A stretch of 64,000 nucleotides of DNA from Planctomycetota bacterium (lineage in GTDB: Bacteria > Planctomycetota > UBA1135 > GCA-002686595). Shown here in pieces: positions 17,998 to 25,632 of this stretch. Position numbers and translations under genes: made by a program. Each line of letters begins with the position of its first letter. Positions within the stretch are counted from its first letter, which is position 1. The notes under the pieces were generated by a model that did no database searches, was not told the origin of the DNA, and saw only the letters and a list, made by a program, of their open reading frames with translations. Where the stretch lies: contig NYYZ01000011.1 in the NCBI GenBank assembly GCA_002686945.1, positions 31,233 to 95,232 on the forward strand, read 5' to 3'.

Positions 17998-18067
17998 GCT
18001 GGAGTCGTGACCTGCCCACCCTTGGCGGGTACCCTTGGGAGCGCCTGGAACCCCAGGCCCGACCCCC

Positions 18068-18751
18068 ATGAAGCGAGTCTCCCGAAATCTGTCTTTCCAC
18101 CGGCCCCCGTCCCGCAACATCTTGCGCCGCGCGGGCTTCACCTTGATCGAACTGATCGCTGTGATGGCGATCATCATGATCTTGGCGGTGGCTTTGCTGC
18201 CGCGGGTCAATGCCGCCTTCGAGCAGGCCCAGGTCACCGCCTGTTCTGCGAACCTGGGCAAGATCTACCAGGGACTGTTGCAGTACCACGGGATGAAGGG
18301 GCGCTGGCCGCGGCACACAGGAGTGGGTTTCTTTGCTGCTCTTGTTGCGGACGAAATCTGGGAGGACACGGAAACGTCCACCAAGACATTGAGTTGCCCC
18401 TCCGTTGAATCTGATTTTCTCACCCCTCAAATGGACGGCTTGCCCATGGGTGAGTGGTACACCGATCTCAGCCGGGTTGATGGTAGTTGGTCTGCCTATG
18501 CGGGGCGCGATACCCGCAACCATCCCCTGCGCAAGTTCCCCGCATCTGGCAAGGTCGTGCTGGTAGCCGATGACAATGATCCAGAGGGGAACCACCGCAT
18601 CAAGACCAACGCGCTGTACGGGGACGGATCGGTGCGGGGTATCGACATAGTCGACGAACGGGATGAGGGCCGTGCGGATGAGGAACAGGAGTTTGTGATT
18701 GTCGGCCCCGATGCTCGCCGGGAGGAACTGCGGGCCCTGACCCTCGACTAG
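18068..18751 (+). CDS. Type II/IV pseudopilin-like protein with H-x9-DG tail motif
   Basis: A 227-residue protein with a class III signal peptide: basic leader, then RRAG/FTLIEL with the conserved Glu5 and a hydrophobic helix to about residue 53. The C-terminal half has HRIKTNALYGDG, the H-x9-DG motif typical of the many secretion-type pseudopilins in Planctomycetota. A prepilin peptidase would cut after the glycine. It starts at 18068, 71 bases after the metK terminator, and is followed 21 bases later by a UbiA-type gene. Its specific role is unknown; such proteins are often not part of classical pili. Confidence 0.82.
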   Translation: MKRVSRNLSFHRPPSRNILRRAGFTLIELIAVMAIIMILAVALLPRVNAAFEQAQVTACSANLGKIYQGLLQYHGMKGRWPRHTGVGFFAALVADEIWEDTETSTKTLSCPSVESDFLTPQMDGLPMGEWYTDLSRVDGSWSAYAGRDTRNHPLRKFPASGKVVLVADDNDPEGNHRIKTNALYGDGSVRGIDIVDERDEGRADEEQEFVIVGPDARREELRALTLD

Positions 18752-19717: not shown

Positions 19718-21217
19718 CTAGGGCGCGATCAGGGAGTCAAGAACCTGGGACAGTTGCTGGCCTCGTGCAGTGCGGCGGGAGCGTGCGCGTTCGGCGCTGG
19801 GGATTGAACCCGGTGGATCCGATTGGGCTTGCCAGTGTCTCAAGGCTGCTTCGAAGCCGAGACGACCGCCGGCGGTGCCCTTGGTGAGCCAGAGTCCGAT
19901 GGCCTGCTCAGCATCGCTGTTGCCCGGGCCGTGTTCCATTTGTTGCAGCAGCCAGGTGCTTGCCTCGTCGCCGCTACCCAGTTGAACAAGGGCCTTGGCG
20001 CTGGCCAGGCGCAGATCCTGAAGGTGCTCCTGGCTGGGATCTTTGAGTTCACGGAACAGTTCTTGGATCGTATCCAGGGCCCCGGGCAGACCGAGATCTC
20101 CCAGCCCGCGTACGGCGGCTACGCGCAGTTCGTGGGGTTGGTCAGCCTGGCTCGCTGCCAGGAGAGGTTTGAGGGAGCGGGGGCTGCCCACGGAGCCCAA
20201 TGCCTCCGCCACCGCCGGGGCTACCTGGACCTCGGTCAAGGCCACCACCAAGGCCATTTCTGTCTCTCGGGCACGGGGGCCCATGCGCTCCAGTACCTGG
20301 GCCACGTGCAGGCGTACATAGGGGTCTGTGTCCCACAGGGCGGCGGCCAGCTCGCGCGCGCACCATGGGCCCAGGTGACTGAGGATGTAGCGCGCGTCGT
20401 CCACCGGCCTGAGGGCAAAGGTGTCGCCCGAGAGATCTTGCACCAGGGACCAGATCTCGGACAGTTGGGCCTCGCTGGGGGCGGCCAGTGGCAGGGCACT
20501 GGCCTCAGAGCTGGACCAGCGTTGGAGGAGTTTGGCGGCGGAGTCGGCAAGCTGTTCTTCGATCCAAGTGATCTCGGCCTGGGCCCTGGTTGCTCGTTCA
20601 TCCCCGCGGCTGGCCAGGTCCATCAGGCCACCGAGTCCCGCCAGGCAGCCTCCCCGGGCCAGACTGGACGCGACCCAGAGGAACGCCTCGGGGTCGGATT
20701 CATAATTCAGGCGAAGGACCAGGCGCGGTAGCACATGGTCCGAGTGAGAGGTCCCCAGACGCCACGCCGCGTGGGCCCGCAGCCAGGGTTCTGTGGCTGT
20801 GGTGGTCAGGTCCAGCAAGCGTTCGCTGGCCGCCGCACCGCTGGGTTCCTGCGCCAGAACCCCGAGCAACTCAACAGCGGCCTGGCGCAGGGCGTTGTCC
20901 AGGCTCCCATCTCGAGCCCACTGGGCCAGGGGCAGGACCGCCGCCTTGCCGAGGGTGGCGAGGTCTTTGAAAGCCAGATCTCGGAACTCGCCCCCGTGCA
21001 CCCGCGTCTGCAGCAGTTCCTGGGTCAGCTCCATGCGCTCGGTCGTTGGGACCGGCGCTTCGGTGTCTGCCGCTGTCAGGTTTGCCAGGCGTTCTGCGAC
21101 CACTCCCGCGAGGGATGGGATCGCAGGCTCAGTGGAGTTGTCGCCCCGGCCGCACGAGGCGAGGAATAGCAATCCCAGAAGACCGCCCAGCTGCCCAGGG
21201 TTGAGCCCAGCTCTCAC
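19718..21217 (-). CDS. HEAT-repeat lipoprotein, last gene of the ABC/cytochrome operon
   Basis: A 499-residue protein starting at the GTG at 21217, whose bases overlap the cytochrome stop as GTGA. The frame extends upstream, but that part only shadows the cytochrome gene. The start gives a lipoprotein signal with lipobox FLASC (Cys22). From about residue 80 onward it is made of helical pairs with the HEAT pattern: PLAQWARDGSLDNALRQAAVELLG, PWLRAHAAWRLG, DPYVRLHVAQVLERMG, HELRVAAVRGLGDLG. It is probably an outer-membrane- or inner-membrane-anchored protein-binding scaffold in the periplasm. Partnership with the cytochrome or importer is inferred only from coupling. Confidence 0.75.
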   Translation of the reverse strand: MRAGLNPGQLGGLLGLLFLASCGRGDNSTEPAIPSLAGVVAERLANLTAADTEAPVPTTERMELTQELLQTRVHGGEFRDLAFKDLATLGKAAVLPLAQWARDGSLDNALRQAAVELLGVLAQEPSGAAASERLLDLTTTATEPWLRAHAAWRLGTSHSDHVLPRLVLRLNYESDPEAFLWVASSLARGGCLAGLGGLMDLASRGDERATRAQAEITWIEEQLADSAAKLLQRWSSSEASALPLAAPSEAQLSEIWSLVQDLSGDTFALRPVDDARYILSHLGPWCARELAAALWDTDPYVRLHVAQVLERMGPRARETEMALVVALTEVQVAPAVAEALGSVGSPRSLKPLLAASQADQPHELRVAAVRGLGDLGLPGALDTIQELFRELKDPSQEHLQDLRLASAKALVQLGSGDEASTWLLQQMEHGPGNSDAEQAIGLWLTKGTAGGRLGFEAALRHWQAQSDPPGSIPSAERARSRRTARGQQLSQVLDSLIAP

Positions 21218-22242
21218 GGAACTACAACCCGATGTACAAGGGAAGAGTCCATCAGGGGATCGGTTACCTCTTCCGTCTTCCAGACCCGTCCATCGCTCGG
21301 ATCCCTGTAATAGGGCGCAAGCTTGTAGAAGAGTGCCACTTCGATGGCTCCCTGTGGTGGCGCGAAACCAATCGTCCGCCGGGGGGAATCCCCCGTCTTG
21401 TCCTGGCTGGCGAGGGCGTGCAGCAGGGTGCTTGGAATGTCCACCTCCGTGCGATAGGGATCGCGGATACGGTGCAGGTGCGTCCAACCACCGCGAGCAT
21501 CTGGGTCAGCGGTCACTGGCCGCCAGAATATGTCCGCTGCTCGCGAACGTTCGTCCGTCGGGAAGGAGTGGGCGCCCATGACATTTTCCACAGTGACCAG
21601 GATCTGGTCTCCTTCCCGCTCCGCTTCGAGGGTTACAGCTGACTGCACCAGGTTCAAGTCGTGGCCTCCCGCCATGCCGTGGTGCCGGCCGCGGTTGGGG
21701 TCGCCGTTCCTGAAAGGCATGTGACAGTCGAGGCAGTCGGGGCCCGTGTCCGCCATGGGGGTTTCTCGCCACTGTGTCACGGTCTTGTGCTGGTCGTGGC
21801 AGCCCGCGCAAAAGGCTACGCGGCTCAAATCCAGGATGGCTTCGGGCTTGCACGGGGCGGAGGGCATGCTGATGGTGCCCGCGACTCCGCCATTGGGCAG
21901 CAGGTGGCAAGCCAGGCAATCCACTCCCTCCGCCCGCCGCGAAGAGCGGGGCAGGACTCGGTTGCCGACTCCTGTCTCGAATACACCGCGTGGGGCGTGG
22001 CAGTCGATGCAGACCTTGTTGCTGAAGTTGTCGCTCTGGGCGATCACATCCTCATCGATCCAGGACTTGGCGTGCCAGGAATCTTCCCACTCGGCAAAAA
22101 CCTCTTGATGGCACTCTTTGCACTGTTGGGAACTGGTCCACTTGACTGGAGTGGTAGGAGTGGCGTTTGGTTCGGGAGGCACCAACTCGGTCATGAACCA
22201 GGCCGCGCATCCGAGTACCAGCAGGCCGAGGAGTTTCTTCAT
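21214..22242 (-). CDS. Periplasmic pentaheme cytochrome c
   Basis: A 342-residue protein with an N-terminal hydrophobic signal (residues 3-20; Cys12 could be a lipobox cysteine). It has five CXXCH heme-attachment sites, at residues 41-45, 78-82, 109-113, 145-149 and 170-174. Extra histidines (SWHAKS, HHGMAGGHD) may be distal heme ligands. The layout resembles c554-like multiheme proteins. The C-terminal half (about 195-342) has no hemes and looks beta-rich. The start overlaps the ATPase stop (ATGA) and the stop overlaps the HEAT gene start (GTGA). It probably carries electrons in the periplasm; its partner is unknown. Confidence 0.88.
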   Translation of the reverse strand: MKKLLGLLVLGCAAWFMTELVPPEPNATPTTPVKWTSSQQCKECHQEVFAEWEDSWHAKSWIDEDVIAQSDNFSNKVCIDCHAPRGVFETGVGNRVLPRSSRRAEGVDCLACHLLPNGGVAGTISMPSAPCKPEAILDLSRVAFCAGCHDQHKTVTQWRETPMADTGPDCLDCHMPFRNGDPNRGRHHGMAGGHDLNLVQSAVTLEAEREGDQILVTVENVMGAHSFPTDERSRAADIFWRPVTADPDARGGWTHLHRIRDPYRTEVDIPSTLLHALASQDKTGDSPRRTIGFAPPQGAIEVALFYKLAPYYRDPSDGRVWKTEEVTDPLMDSSLVHRVVVP

Positions 22243-23000
22243 GCTGACTCGTCTCCCTCTCTACTTGGTTCAGGGGCTGGATCGTGGGTTGAAGAACTGC
22301 CCGAAGAGTCCGTCTGTGTAATCTCCAGCTTGCCCTTGTCCAGGCGAGCCACCGCATTCGCCAGCGAACGCGCTTCGTTTTCATCATGGGTCACATGCAC
22401 GATGGTCAGGCGCAGTTCCTTGCTGAGCGCATCCAGAGATTTCAACAGTCCCCGGCGCAGGTCCTGATCAAGAGGTCCCAGGGGCTCGTCCAGGAGCAGC
22501 AATCCCGGCTCCGTAGCCAGGGCCCGGGCCAGGGCCAGGCGCTGGGCTTCGCCCCCTGAAAGCGTCGGTACCGAGCGTTTGTCAAAACCCTTCAGCTCCA
22601 CCAATTCCAGCAGTTTCTCTCGCCGTTGCTTGCGCTCCTTGCGAGGCACCTTGGAGGCAGTGAGCACAAAGTCCAGGGTCTGCCGTACGGTCATGTGGGG
22701 CCAGAGTGCTCCCCCTTGGAAGAGCAGGCCAACCCCTCGATCCTGGGGGCTGATCAAACTGTTGGGACCCGCATGTACCTTTTGCCCCAGCACATGCATC
22801 ACGCCGCCGGTCACATTTCCGAGCCCCGCGATGGCACGCAGGAGAGTCGTCTTGCCCGAGCCCGAAGGGCCCACCAGCAGCAGGTGATCACCCACCACCA
22901 GGGAGAGTTCCAGGGGACCGAGCAGAGGCTCGCCACCCACATTGATTGTGACTCCAGAAAGTTGAAGAGCAAGTTGTACGTCGGGTTGCATTTCGCTCAC
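22239..23000 (-). CDS. ABC importer ATP-binding protein, iron/sulfate/thiamine type
   Basis: A 253-residue ATPase. Walker A GPSGSGKTT, Q-loop LLFQGGALWP, signature LSGGEAQRLALARAL, Walker B LLLLDEPLGPLD and switch HVTHDENEA are all intact. The GTG at 23000 overlaps the permease stop in GTGA and is preferred; the ATG at 22991 is the alternative. The sequence resembles single-ATPase importers for ferric iron or anions. It energises the fused permease encoded upstream. The short acidic tail lacks the regulatory beta-domain seen in MalK or FbpC types. Confidence 0.9.
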   Translation of the reverse strand: MSEMQPDVQLALQLSGVTINVGGEPLLGPLELSLVVGDHLLLVGPSGSGKTTLLRAIAGLGNVTGGVMHVLGQKVHAGPNSLISPQDRGVGLLFQGGALWPHMTVRQTLDFVLTASKVPRKERKQRREKLLELVELKGFDKRSVPTLSGGEAQRLALARALATEPGLLLLDEPLGPLDQDLRRGLLKSLDALSKELRLTIVHVTHDENEARSLANAVARLDKGKLEITQTDSSGSSSTHDPAPEPSREGDESA

Positions 23001-24559
23001 GGCAGGATCTCCATGCGGCGTTTGGAAAAGAGGGCCCACAACAGGCCGGGCAGGATCACAACAAAAATCACCAGCAGGGAAAGGGCGGCCACATAGTTTG
23101 AGTGGCCAAAGTGCACCGCATTGAAGACCCGGTACATGGCAGTTTGTTTGGCTGCGGGAACGATCACCGCAGCATCCAGTTCACGTACGGCGAGGACGAA
23201 GATCAGGGTCCAGGCCCCCGCAAGAGAGGGCCATAGGGGGGGAGCTACCACCCTCAGCAGGCGTTTGACGGGAGAGATTCCTGCCAGCTGGGCCGCTTCT
23301 TCCAACTCAGGATTCAAGGAGGCGACCCCCGACTGGCAGACCAGGGTGGGGAAGCAGAGAAACCGTCCGATGATCATCATCACCACCAGTACGCCACTGC
23401 TATAGATCAGCTCAAAGCCCCCGCCCCGATTCCAGAGCAGGACCGTACCGATGCCGTAGAGAATCGCGGGCACCGCGAGAGGCAGCAGCACAAGCAGGGG
23501 CAAGCCAAAGCGCGCCGTGCGTCCGCCCCGTTCAGCGCGGTGTCCGAGCACCAGTGCCAGAGGCACAGCCAGACTGGCGGCGCTGAAAGCAAAGAGAATT
23601 GAGTGCCGCAGGTCATCCCGGCCCAGTTCAAAGGCCATTGCAAAGGCCTCGCCGAGGGCCACTTGGCTCCAACCCTGGGGACCGCCCCCAGCCTCCCAGA
23701 ACAGCCTCCCCAGGGGGACGCCCGCTCCCAGCACTACGAAGCCGAGGCAGAACAAGAAAGCTGGCCAGCGCCCGGCGCCCAGGTCCAGGGGCTTGGGTGC
23801 TTCAAAATTGCCCTCAATGGTGGCCATTGATCCGCGGCGCATGAGCACCAGTGCGGGCAACAATGCGGCCAGGGTCATGAGCACGAGCGGAATGGCTGTG
23901 GCCACCGCTTCGGGGGCGTCTTGATCGACCTGCCAGACTGCGAAGACCTCGTCTGCGAACACATTGAACTTCGGGCCCACCGACGACACATAGTCGGGCA
24001 GGGCAAAGTCGTGGATCGCGAACAGAAATGCGAAGGCACAACCCGCCATCACAGCCGGTGCAATCAGGGGCCATTCCATCGCAAACAAGGCGGGCCGTCC
24101 CCCCGCGAGCAAGGCAGCTTCCTCCCGTCGGGCGTCGATGCGCCCTGCCGCCTTGGCGGTGAAGAGCGCAACGATGGGGGTCGTGGATAGCCCAATCAAC
24201 AGGGCCGTCATGGGCGCGCCGCGCAGGCCAGTGACCTGGGTCCAGGTGGTGGCCAGGAGCAGAGGCGGAATCAAGAAGGGCAAGAGTCCCAGTGCCCCGA
24301 GCAGCTTGCCCAGAGGCAGTTTGGTCCGTGCCACCAGAAAACCAAAGGGTGCGCCCAGCAGTCCGGCCAAAGCTGCGGCTGACAGACCCAGACCGAGGGT
24401 GCGCCCCAAGAGGCTCATGACCCGTGGGTCCTTGAGTACGCCTAGCGCCTCGGAAGCATTCACCAGACGCCAGCCCATGACGATCAGGGGCGCCAGCCCA
24501 AACAGGATGAGGGCTCCTATGGCCAGGGCGAAGAGGGGGTCTGAACGCTTGCTCTTCAA
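22997..24559 (-). CDS. ABC importer permease, fused two-domain FbpB type
   Basis: A 520-residue inner-membrane protein with about 12 hydrophobic helices in two halves. Each half carries the EAA loop that docks the ATPase: EEAALLAGGRPALFAMEWPL in the first half and EEAAQLAGISPVKRLLRVVA in the second. This duplicated architecture is typical of ferric-iron (FbpB/AfuB) and ThiP-type importers. The start overlaps the binding-protein stop and the stop overlaps the ATPase start, each by four bases. The substrate is inferred from family; iron is most likely, another metal or thiamine is possible. Confidence 0.88.
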   Translation of the reverse strand: MKSKRSDPLFALAIGALILFGLAPLIVMGWRLVNASEALGVLKDPRVMSLLGRTLGLGLSAAALAGLLGAPFGFLVARTKLPLGKLLGALGLLPFLIPPLLLATTWTQVTGLRGAPMTALLIGLSTTPIVALFTAKAAGRIDARREEAALLAGGRPALFAMEWPLIAPAVMAGCAFAFLFAIHDFALPDYVSSVGPKFNVFADEVFAVWQVDQDAPEAVATAIPLVLMTLAALLPALVLMRRGSMATIEGNFEAPKPLDLGAGRWPAFLFCLGFVVLGAGVPLGRLFWEAGGGPQGWSQVALGEAFAMAFELGRDDLRHSILFAFSAASLAVPLALVLGHRAERGGRTARFGLPLLVLLPLAVPAILYGIGTVLLWNRGGGFELIYSSGVLVVMMIIGRFLCFPTLVCQSGVASLNPELEEAAQLAGISPVKRLLRVVAPPLWPSLAGAWTLIFVLAVRELDAAVIVPAAKQTAMYRVFNAVHFGHSNYVAALSLLVIFVVILPGLLWALFSKRRMEILP

Positions 24560-25632
24560 CGGTCGAGGTAGAGGGCCTTGAGGTACTTGGTGTGCTCGGC
24601 CAACTCCGCGCCCACCTGGTTGTAGTCCACTTTCATGATCGTGAAGTCGCTCTTCACATGGTCCGGCCGGGGAACATTGGGTCGCACCGGGATCTGGGCC
24701 GAGCGTGCCTTGGCCAGTCGTTCTTCTACCTTCTCAGAGAGCACCCAGTCCACAAATGCTCGGGCCTCTTTCAGATGGGGGGCGCCTTTCATGATCGCGA
24801 TGGTGTTGGGAATCAGCAGGGTGCCAAGGGGCTCTTCACCATTGGGTCCAGCCTCCTGGTTGGGATAGACCGCTACGACCGGAGCCCCGGAGAGGCGTGC
24901 CACATTGAAGTCGTCCGTGTCGGTGTAGGCTGCGGCCAATTCGCCGCTGCGCACCAGGGTCATGGACTGACCGTTGGAACGCACCACATGAACGGGGGGT
25001 GGATCTTCGTGCTGGTGCGAGGCGATCCTTTTCCAGAAGGTGTCGGCGTGCTCCTGGCCCAGGCTGGTGTACATGGCTGCTGCATGGGTCAGAGTGGTAC
25101 CTGTCAGGGGTCGCGCCACTCCCACCTTGCCCTGCCAGTAGGAATCGAAGAGGTCCTGCATGTCATTGATTTTTGCAGGATCCGCCAACTCGGTATTGAC
25201 GATCACAATGCGCGCCCGGGCGGCGAAACCAGTCCAGAGATGATCCTGGTCCCTGAAGGTCGCAGGAATGTCCTGCGCGGAAGGCGAGTCGTAGGGCTGC
25301 AGCATTCCCAGGCGTGCGAGGCGCACGGTCTGCACGATTTCATTGTTCCAGAAAACATCGCAGCGCGGGTGTGCGCTTTCGGCGATCAACTGACCCACCA
25401 GTCCCACGGTCTTCTGGTGCTCCTGGTCGTAGAGTGCTTCGACCACAAGTCCGCTCTGCTTCTCATAGTCCCGGACCAGTTCTTCACTGAACACCTGGTC
25501 GAGGGCGCAGTAGACCACCAGGTCGGGCTTGGGTCCGCAGGCGAGCAGGCCCAGCAAGGGCAGGGACAGCAGGAGGTGGCGGCCTTGGAACCAGATCGGA
25601 ACCAGGAATTGAGGGAGGGGGGGGCGGGTCAT
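24556..25632 (-). CDS. ABC importer substrate-binding lipoprotein, iron type
   Basis: A 358-residue protein from the ATG at 25632; the frame is open upstream but only this start gives a proper signal with lipobox GLLAC (Cys32). The mature part begins LVVYCALDQVFSEELVRDY, as in the FbpA/AfuA group of periplasmic ferric-binding proteins. It also shows CDVFWNNEIVQT and, late, AAYTDTDDFNVA. The adjacent tyrosine pair that binds Fe(III) in classic FbpA is not obvious, so metal ligation may differ. It is the first gene of a five-gene minus-strand operon. Confidence 0.85.
   Translation of the reverse strand: MTRPPLPQFLVPIWFQGRHLLLSLPLLGLLACGPKPDLVVYCALDQVFSEELVRDYEKQSGLVVEALYDQEHQKTVGLVGQLIAESAHPRCDVFWNNEIVQTVRLARLGMLQPYDSPSAQDIPATFRDQDHLWTGFAARARIVIVNTELADPAKINDMQDLFDSYWQGKVGVARPLTGTTLTHAAAMYTSLGQEHADTFWKRIASHQHEDPPPVHVVRSNGQSMTLVRSGELAAAYTDTDDFNVARLSGAPVVAVYPNQEAGPNGEEPLGTLLIPNTIAIMKGAPHLKEARAFVDWVLSEKVEERLAKARSAQIPVRPNVPRPDHVKSDFTIMKVDYNQVGAELAEHTKYLKALYLDR

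Follow-up and report, generated by a model that had tools for sequence, protein, structure and literature searches.

In a 64,000-nt window of a planctomycete genome that is 79% complete, we found an ABC importer resembling FbpABC/FutABC that is encoded together with a pentahaem c-type cytochrome and a HEAT-repeat lipoprotein. Given that the partnership of cytochrome and importer survives reshuffling of the genes across the phylum, although the tyrosine ligands typical of ferric-binding relatives are gone, the locus has the appearance of a so far undescribed importer that includes a step of electron transfer. We propose redox-coupled ABC import, with iron or another metal as the most probable substrate, as a tentative reading that falls a little short of an even chance.

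The operon and its conservation

All five open reading frames (ORFs) at 19718-25632 of the window are present and co-directional on the minus strand. The genes and their junctions are as follows.

24556-25632, minus strand: substrate-binding lipoprotein (SBP), 358 aa; ATG start, lipobox LLAC at C32, FbpA/FutA fold
24556-24559, minus strand: TTGA overlap of 4 bases, SBP stop and permease start
22997-24559, minus strand: two-domain ABC permease, FbpB-like, 520 aa; TTG start
22997-23000, minus strand: GTGA overlap of 4 bases, permease and ATPase
22239-23000, minus strand: ABC ATPase, 253 aa; GTG start
22239-22242, minus strand: ATGA overlap of 4 bases, ATPase and cytochrome
21214-22242, minus strand: pentahaem c-type cytochrome, 342 aa; ATG start, five CxxCH motifs
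21214-21217, minus strand: GTGA overlap of 4 bases, cytochrome and HEAT lipoprotein
19718-21217, minus strand: HEAT-repeat lipoprotein, 499 aa; GTG start, lipobox Cys22

The Pfam assignments agree with the ORFs: SBP_bac_8/6 for the SBP, BPD_transp_1 twice within the single chain of the permease, ABC_tran for the ATPase, Cytochrome_C7/C554 for the cytochrome and HEAT_2 for the last protein. The description of the locus in an earlier note, as a five-gene operon of importer, five-haem cytochrome and HEAT lipoprotein, is thus borne out. Among the matches listed, no NCBIfam equivalog was above its cut-off for any of the five operon proteins. The same note had described all four junctions as 4-base overlaps of the ATGA or GTGA type; the length is right for all four, but the first is TTGA. 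Because a 4-base overlap is available in 12-19 of 21 loci per junction (16/21, 19/21, 12/21 and 18/21 for junctions 1-4 in the window and 20 relatives), the overlaps are not due to chance. Close to the operon, on the opposite strand, the window also encodes, at 18035-18751, a prepilin-like protein whose N-terminus carries a type IV pilin motif (FTLIELIAVMAI).

A search of gene neighbourhoods, proposed in the earlier note as a check on its reading, found the order SBP-permease-ATPase-cytochrome, the last with five haem motifs, in 20 of 20 loci of relatives from eight families of the same taxonomic order, and it recurs outside that order. The note had named a gene order kept in no relative as grounds for refuting its reading, and these loci speak against that refutation. 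The HEAT gene was detected by sequence after the cytochrome in 19 of these 20 loci, and the genes flanking the operon vary beyond the genus. The cluster was found in named contigs, including those of the cultured strains Poly30, Pla86 and Pla163. In Poly30, an unrelated opposite-strand gene is inserted between the ATPase and the cytochrome (L123, 11805-13514); read by eye, it encodes a flavoprotein resembling sulfide:quinone oxidoreductase. The relatives are mostly metagenome-assembled, gene calls beyond the window rest on mechanically derived ORFs anchored by matches to profiles, and contig ends hide some gene contexts.

We also compared the presence of the SBP with that of a close cytochrome in 59 relatives with usable data. 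Both were present in 50 and both absent in six, while three had the SBP alone (one of these carries part of a cytochrome at the end of a contig) and none had the cytochrome alone. Presence and absence therefore agree in 56 of the 59 (p=1.9e-6, not corrected for relatedness). A cytochrome without a detected SBP occurs in G100, a family member outside the 59-relative set.

In a wider sample of the phylum, comprising 392 genomes, 276 contained SBP relatives and 116 contained close cytochromes; for many SBP homologues, no cytochrome is encoded in the vicinity. The five-gene order occurs in other planctomycete families as well (L181 and L208), and L187 shows the same order with an unscored gene in the HEAT position. 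Outside the phylum, the UBP9 contig L155 carries the first four genes, through the cytochrome, in the same order. Rearranged forms also occur. In L193-L196 the cytochrome gene immediately precedes the SBP, and in L198 it immediately precedes the importer genes. In the split loci L199-L201, L203 and L204 it adjoins an ATPase of the same subfamily, usually with the HEAT gene, and the SBP and permease genes sit elsewhere. Loss of the permease from the split genomes was considered and rejected, as a same-family permease is encoded elsewhere in 10 of the 10 genomes checked. On the SBP tree, a quick tree with several open forks from whose context mapping several loci ending at contig edges were left out, linkage to the cytochrome changed at least six times. 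Together with the rearranged loci, these changes indicate that the pairing exceeds the inheritance of one old operon. A conserved cytochrome partner of the importer, as previously suggested, is therefore upheld: it is kept through rearranged forms and lost with the SBP. A genuine importer and joint production of the components are supported as well: the gene order is conserved, the pairing outlasts rearrangement, and SBP and cytochrome are lost together.

Ligand site of the binding protein and haems of the cytochrome

The structural model of the SBP is good (AF2 pLDDT 89.6). Its best solved fold matches are FutA1, Trichodesmium FutA, Moraxella FbpA (McFbpA) and Campylobacter FbpA (cFbpA), with a Foldseek E of 1e-22 against FutA1 and a profile E of 5e-36 against cFbpA. 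In the FbpA/FutA family, the ferric ligands are Tyr-Tyr(-Tyr), with or without His (PMC10182148, PMC6254336). In the profile alignment, the C-lobe Tyr pair of cFbpA falls on Asp240-Asp241 of the SBP, while Thr179 matches the third Tyr and Asp45-Gln46 match the His-Tyr of the N-lobe. The N-lobe Arg pair is retained at the same alignment position as in FbpA/FutA. The acidic stretch in the C-lobe is encoded as follows.

24910-24924, minus strand: TDTDD codons, T237-D241 of the SBP, with D240-D241 on the FbpA/FutA Tyr-Tyr

Across 114 SBP sequences, Asp238, Asp240, Asp241, Arg139 and Arg141 are invariant and Asp45, Asp69, Glu71 and Lys74 nearly so, whether or not a cytochrome is nearby. The earlier observation that the SBP has no FbpA tyrosine pair, suggesting altered ligation, can thus be made precise, in that D240-D241 take the place of the pair. 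Replacement of the Tyr ligands by a fixed acidic set argues against simple ferric binding and points instead to a changed state of the metal, to some other metal or to a metal complex. In G000, G001, G002, G004 and G005, no SBP_bac_8 protein was found besides the SBP; no redundant second SBP_bac_8 importer was found in the window's own genome, at its 79% completeness.

The haem-binding motifs of the cytochrome and its additional candidate ligand are located as follows.

22108-22122, minus strand: CxxCH 1, residues 41-45
21997-22011, minus strand: CxxCH 2, residues 78-82
21904-21918, minus strand: CxxCH 3, residues 109-113
21850-21852, minus strand: Cys131 codon, non-haem Cys, candidate fifth distal haem ligand
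21796-21810, minus strand: CxxCH 4, residues 145-149
21721-21735, minus strand: CxxCH 5, residues 170-174

The five CxxCH motifs are kept in 78 of 78 cytochrome sequences, in which four extra His (57, 152, 188 and 225) are near-invariant. Cys131 is conserved in 77 of the 78, and its region holds a single non-haem Cys in 55. The sole cytochrome without Cys131 (L212) comes from genome G420, which is not among the listed SBP positives. Five proximal His, four further His and one Cys would together give five six-coordinate haems, and this ligand pattern would fit bis-His ligation of four haems and His/Cys ligation of the fifth. The cytochrome model is of moderate quality (pLDDT 82) and holds no haem. 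It predicts an N-terminal hydrophobic helix, by which the protein is probably anchored in the membrane, and a C-terminal beta domain, which partially matches a superoxide-reductase-like fold (TM ~0.2). The best match in both sequence and fold is the pentahaem c552 of Thermochromatium tepidum (PDB 5ze8), which likewise has five haems (here, five CxxCH) and a C-terminal beta domain; the two share ~19% identity, with a TM of ~0.5 and an rmsd of 8.8 for the haem-free model, and the Cys131-bearing segment does not align. To our knowledge, this c552 has no link to a transporter. In the HEAT lipoprotein, the lipobox Cys22 is invariant; that this protein tethers or docks the other parts is a guess.

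Neighbouring genes and rival explanations

Importers without the pentahaem cytochrome have ChrB_C or a full ChrB beside them in Desulfosarcina and Desulfatirhabdium (Desulfobacterota), and the same arrangement occurs in Nitrospirota, Omnitrophota, Verrucomicrobiota and Zixibacteria contigs and in some other Planctomycetota. A full ChrB adjoins the importer in L175, L179 and L191. In L179 (4613-11777), the neighbours also include an eight-CxxCH cytochrome that the pentahaem profile missed. In addition, one TonB-dependent receptor family recurs near the SBP or cytochrome in five loci; it is nearest to haem/haemoglobin and transferrin/lactoferrin receptors, below cut-off. The loci are as follows.

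L135 11286-11801; L148 7469-7969; L150 11214-11744: small exported ChrB_C (PF09828) beside the importer
L151 11272-11745; L158 13762-14304; L160 8305-8814: small exported ChrB_C (PF09828) beside the importer
L147 3540-5717; L158 9037-11226; L189 3715-5982; L196 1331-3547; L202 12053-14428: TonB receptor

Taken together, these neighbours favour a metal and, weakly, iron. A search for a solved structure of ChrB_C found none. No ChrB_C gene is present in the window operon, and ChrB_C as a hidden part in the window's lineage was rejected, with none in its own genome and 4 of 61 relatives positive genome-wide. The TonB receptor was likewise rejected as a part of the window's system, since it is patchy in the window's order, and the window's own genome has distant receptors only and no close homologue.

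Several other genes were observed near SBP genes. Upstream of the SBP, L209 (8513-9823, directly upstream) and L208 (15396-16763) encode UshA-like proteins that combine a PCGC motif with four CxxCH; the corresponding position in L210 (12469-13848) is taken by a four-CxxCH ORF. In L186 (7958-9040) and L159 (9044-10132), a stand-alone SBP copy is followed by a DUF362 gene, with the Pfam assignment made on the L186 copy.

Because the ferric ligands of the SBP are lost, iron loses its usual argument, and reduced iron already has an importer in these relatives, given that FeoB is present in 56 of 61. The same architecture might serve another metal (manganese, cobalt, nickel or a lanthanide) or a metal chelate that suits an all-carboxylate site better than ferric iron does. 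The invariant Asp/Glu-rich site without His or Tyr accords with this, as does the result that no E. coli-type Fur box scored above shuffles in 21 upstream regions, although the Fur sites of this phylum may differ. However, several such metals need no electron-transfer partner, and the recurring TonB receptor resembles haem/transferrin receptors, so we consider this alternative unlikely. Less probable still is an importer for an organic cation or zwitterion of the thiamine, polyamine or aminophosphonate type, with the cytochrome serving a co-regulated pathway instead of transport. Such a substrate would agree with the nearest named NCBIfam relatives, aminoethylphosphonate and polyamine systems that all score far below cut-off, and with the membership of pyridoxal-phosphate and hexose-phosphate binders in the SBP fold family; it would not explain why several rearrangements have left the cytochrome next to genes of the importer, nor why SBP and cytochrome disappear together.

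The ChrB_C and ChrB genes that adjoin the SBP in five other phyla and some Planctomycetota, together with the presence of ChrB_C in only 4 of the 61 window relatives, raise a further alternative, in which the importer and its accessory, cytochrome or ChrB_C, handle the stress of a redox-active oxyanion such as chromate and have no role in nutrition. This seems improbable, as the acidic pocket is unsuited to an oxyanion and the operon was not found to contain a gene for a chromate transporter. Co-transcription by itself would also fit an importer that supplies iron for haem and cytochrome production, with the cytochrome as a mere client. Yet these genomes, rich in other multihaem proteins, retain one particular pentahaem family, and haem-ligation genes were not found in the operon; of the four alternatives, we give this one the least credence.

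A possible redox-coupled import system

In the redox-coupled import that we prefer, the SBP would bind a metal, free or complexed, and most probably iron. Its carboxylate-rich site would present Asp, Gln, Thr, Asp and Asp where ferric-binding relatives have His/Tyr ligands, and would keep the paired N-lobe Arg. With its N-terminal helix as an anchor, the cytochrome would pass electrons to the metal at uptake, for example reducing Fe(III) to Fe(II), and its reactive end may be the His/Cys haem or an open haem. The HEAT lipoprotein could act as a docking scaffold that organises this contact, and the permease and ATPase would import the product. A more specific proposal is that such importers form a class of their own, in which a dedicated, membrane-anchored pentahaem cytochrome with one His/Cys haem obligatorily reduces the metal on an Asp-pair SBP, and in which ChrB_C replaces the cytochrome in other phyla; we regard this form as doubtful.

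We found no description of such a system in open-access papers. It resembles FbpABC/FutABC in the SBP fold, the single-chain two-domain permease, the ATPase and the N-lobe Arg pair, but the His/Tyr ferric ligands are all replaced, and the cytochrome and HEAT lipoprotein are added. In Pseudomonas, FpvG acts with FpvCDEF in periplasmic siderophore reduction, combining a membrane reductase, a periplasmic carrier and an ABC importer. Likened by description, the logic would be common to both systems, with the multihaem cytochrome as the candidate reductase here. The iron importer EfeUOB is another metal importer co-encoded with a haem protein, of the peroxidase type; by description, it differs in its permease and in having this protein in place of a multihaem cytochrome.

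The cultured members Poly30, Pla86 and Pla163 make the system testable. If our reading is true, multihaem electron transfer would be tied directly to nutrient import, and the SBP would represent a second FbpA-like lineage with Asp instead of Tyr. Planctomycetes have many multihaem cytochromes with no assigned role; our reading would also provide one of them with a function open to testing, and would offer a first clue to the role of exported ChrB_C proteins outside chromate resistance.
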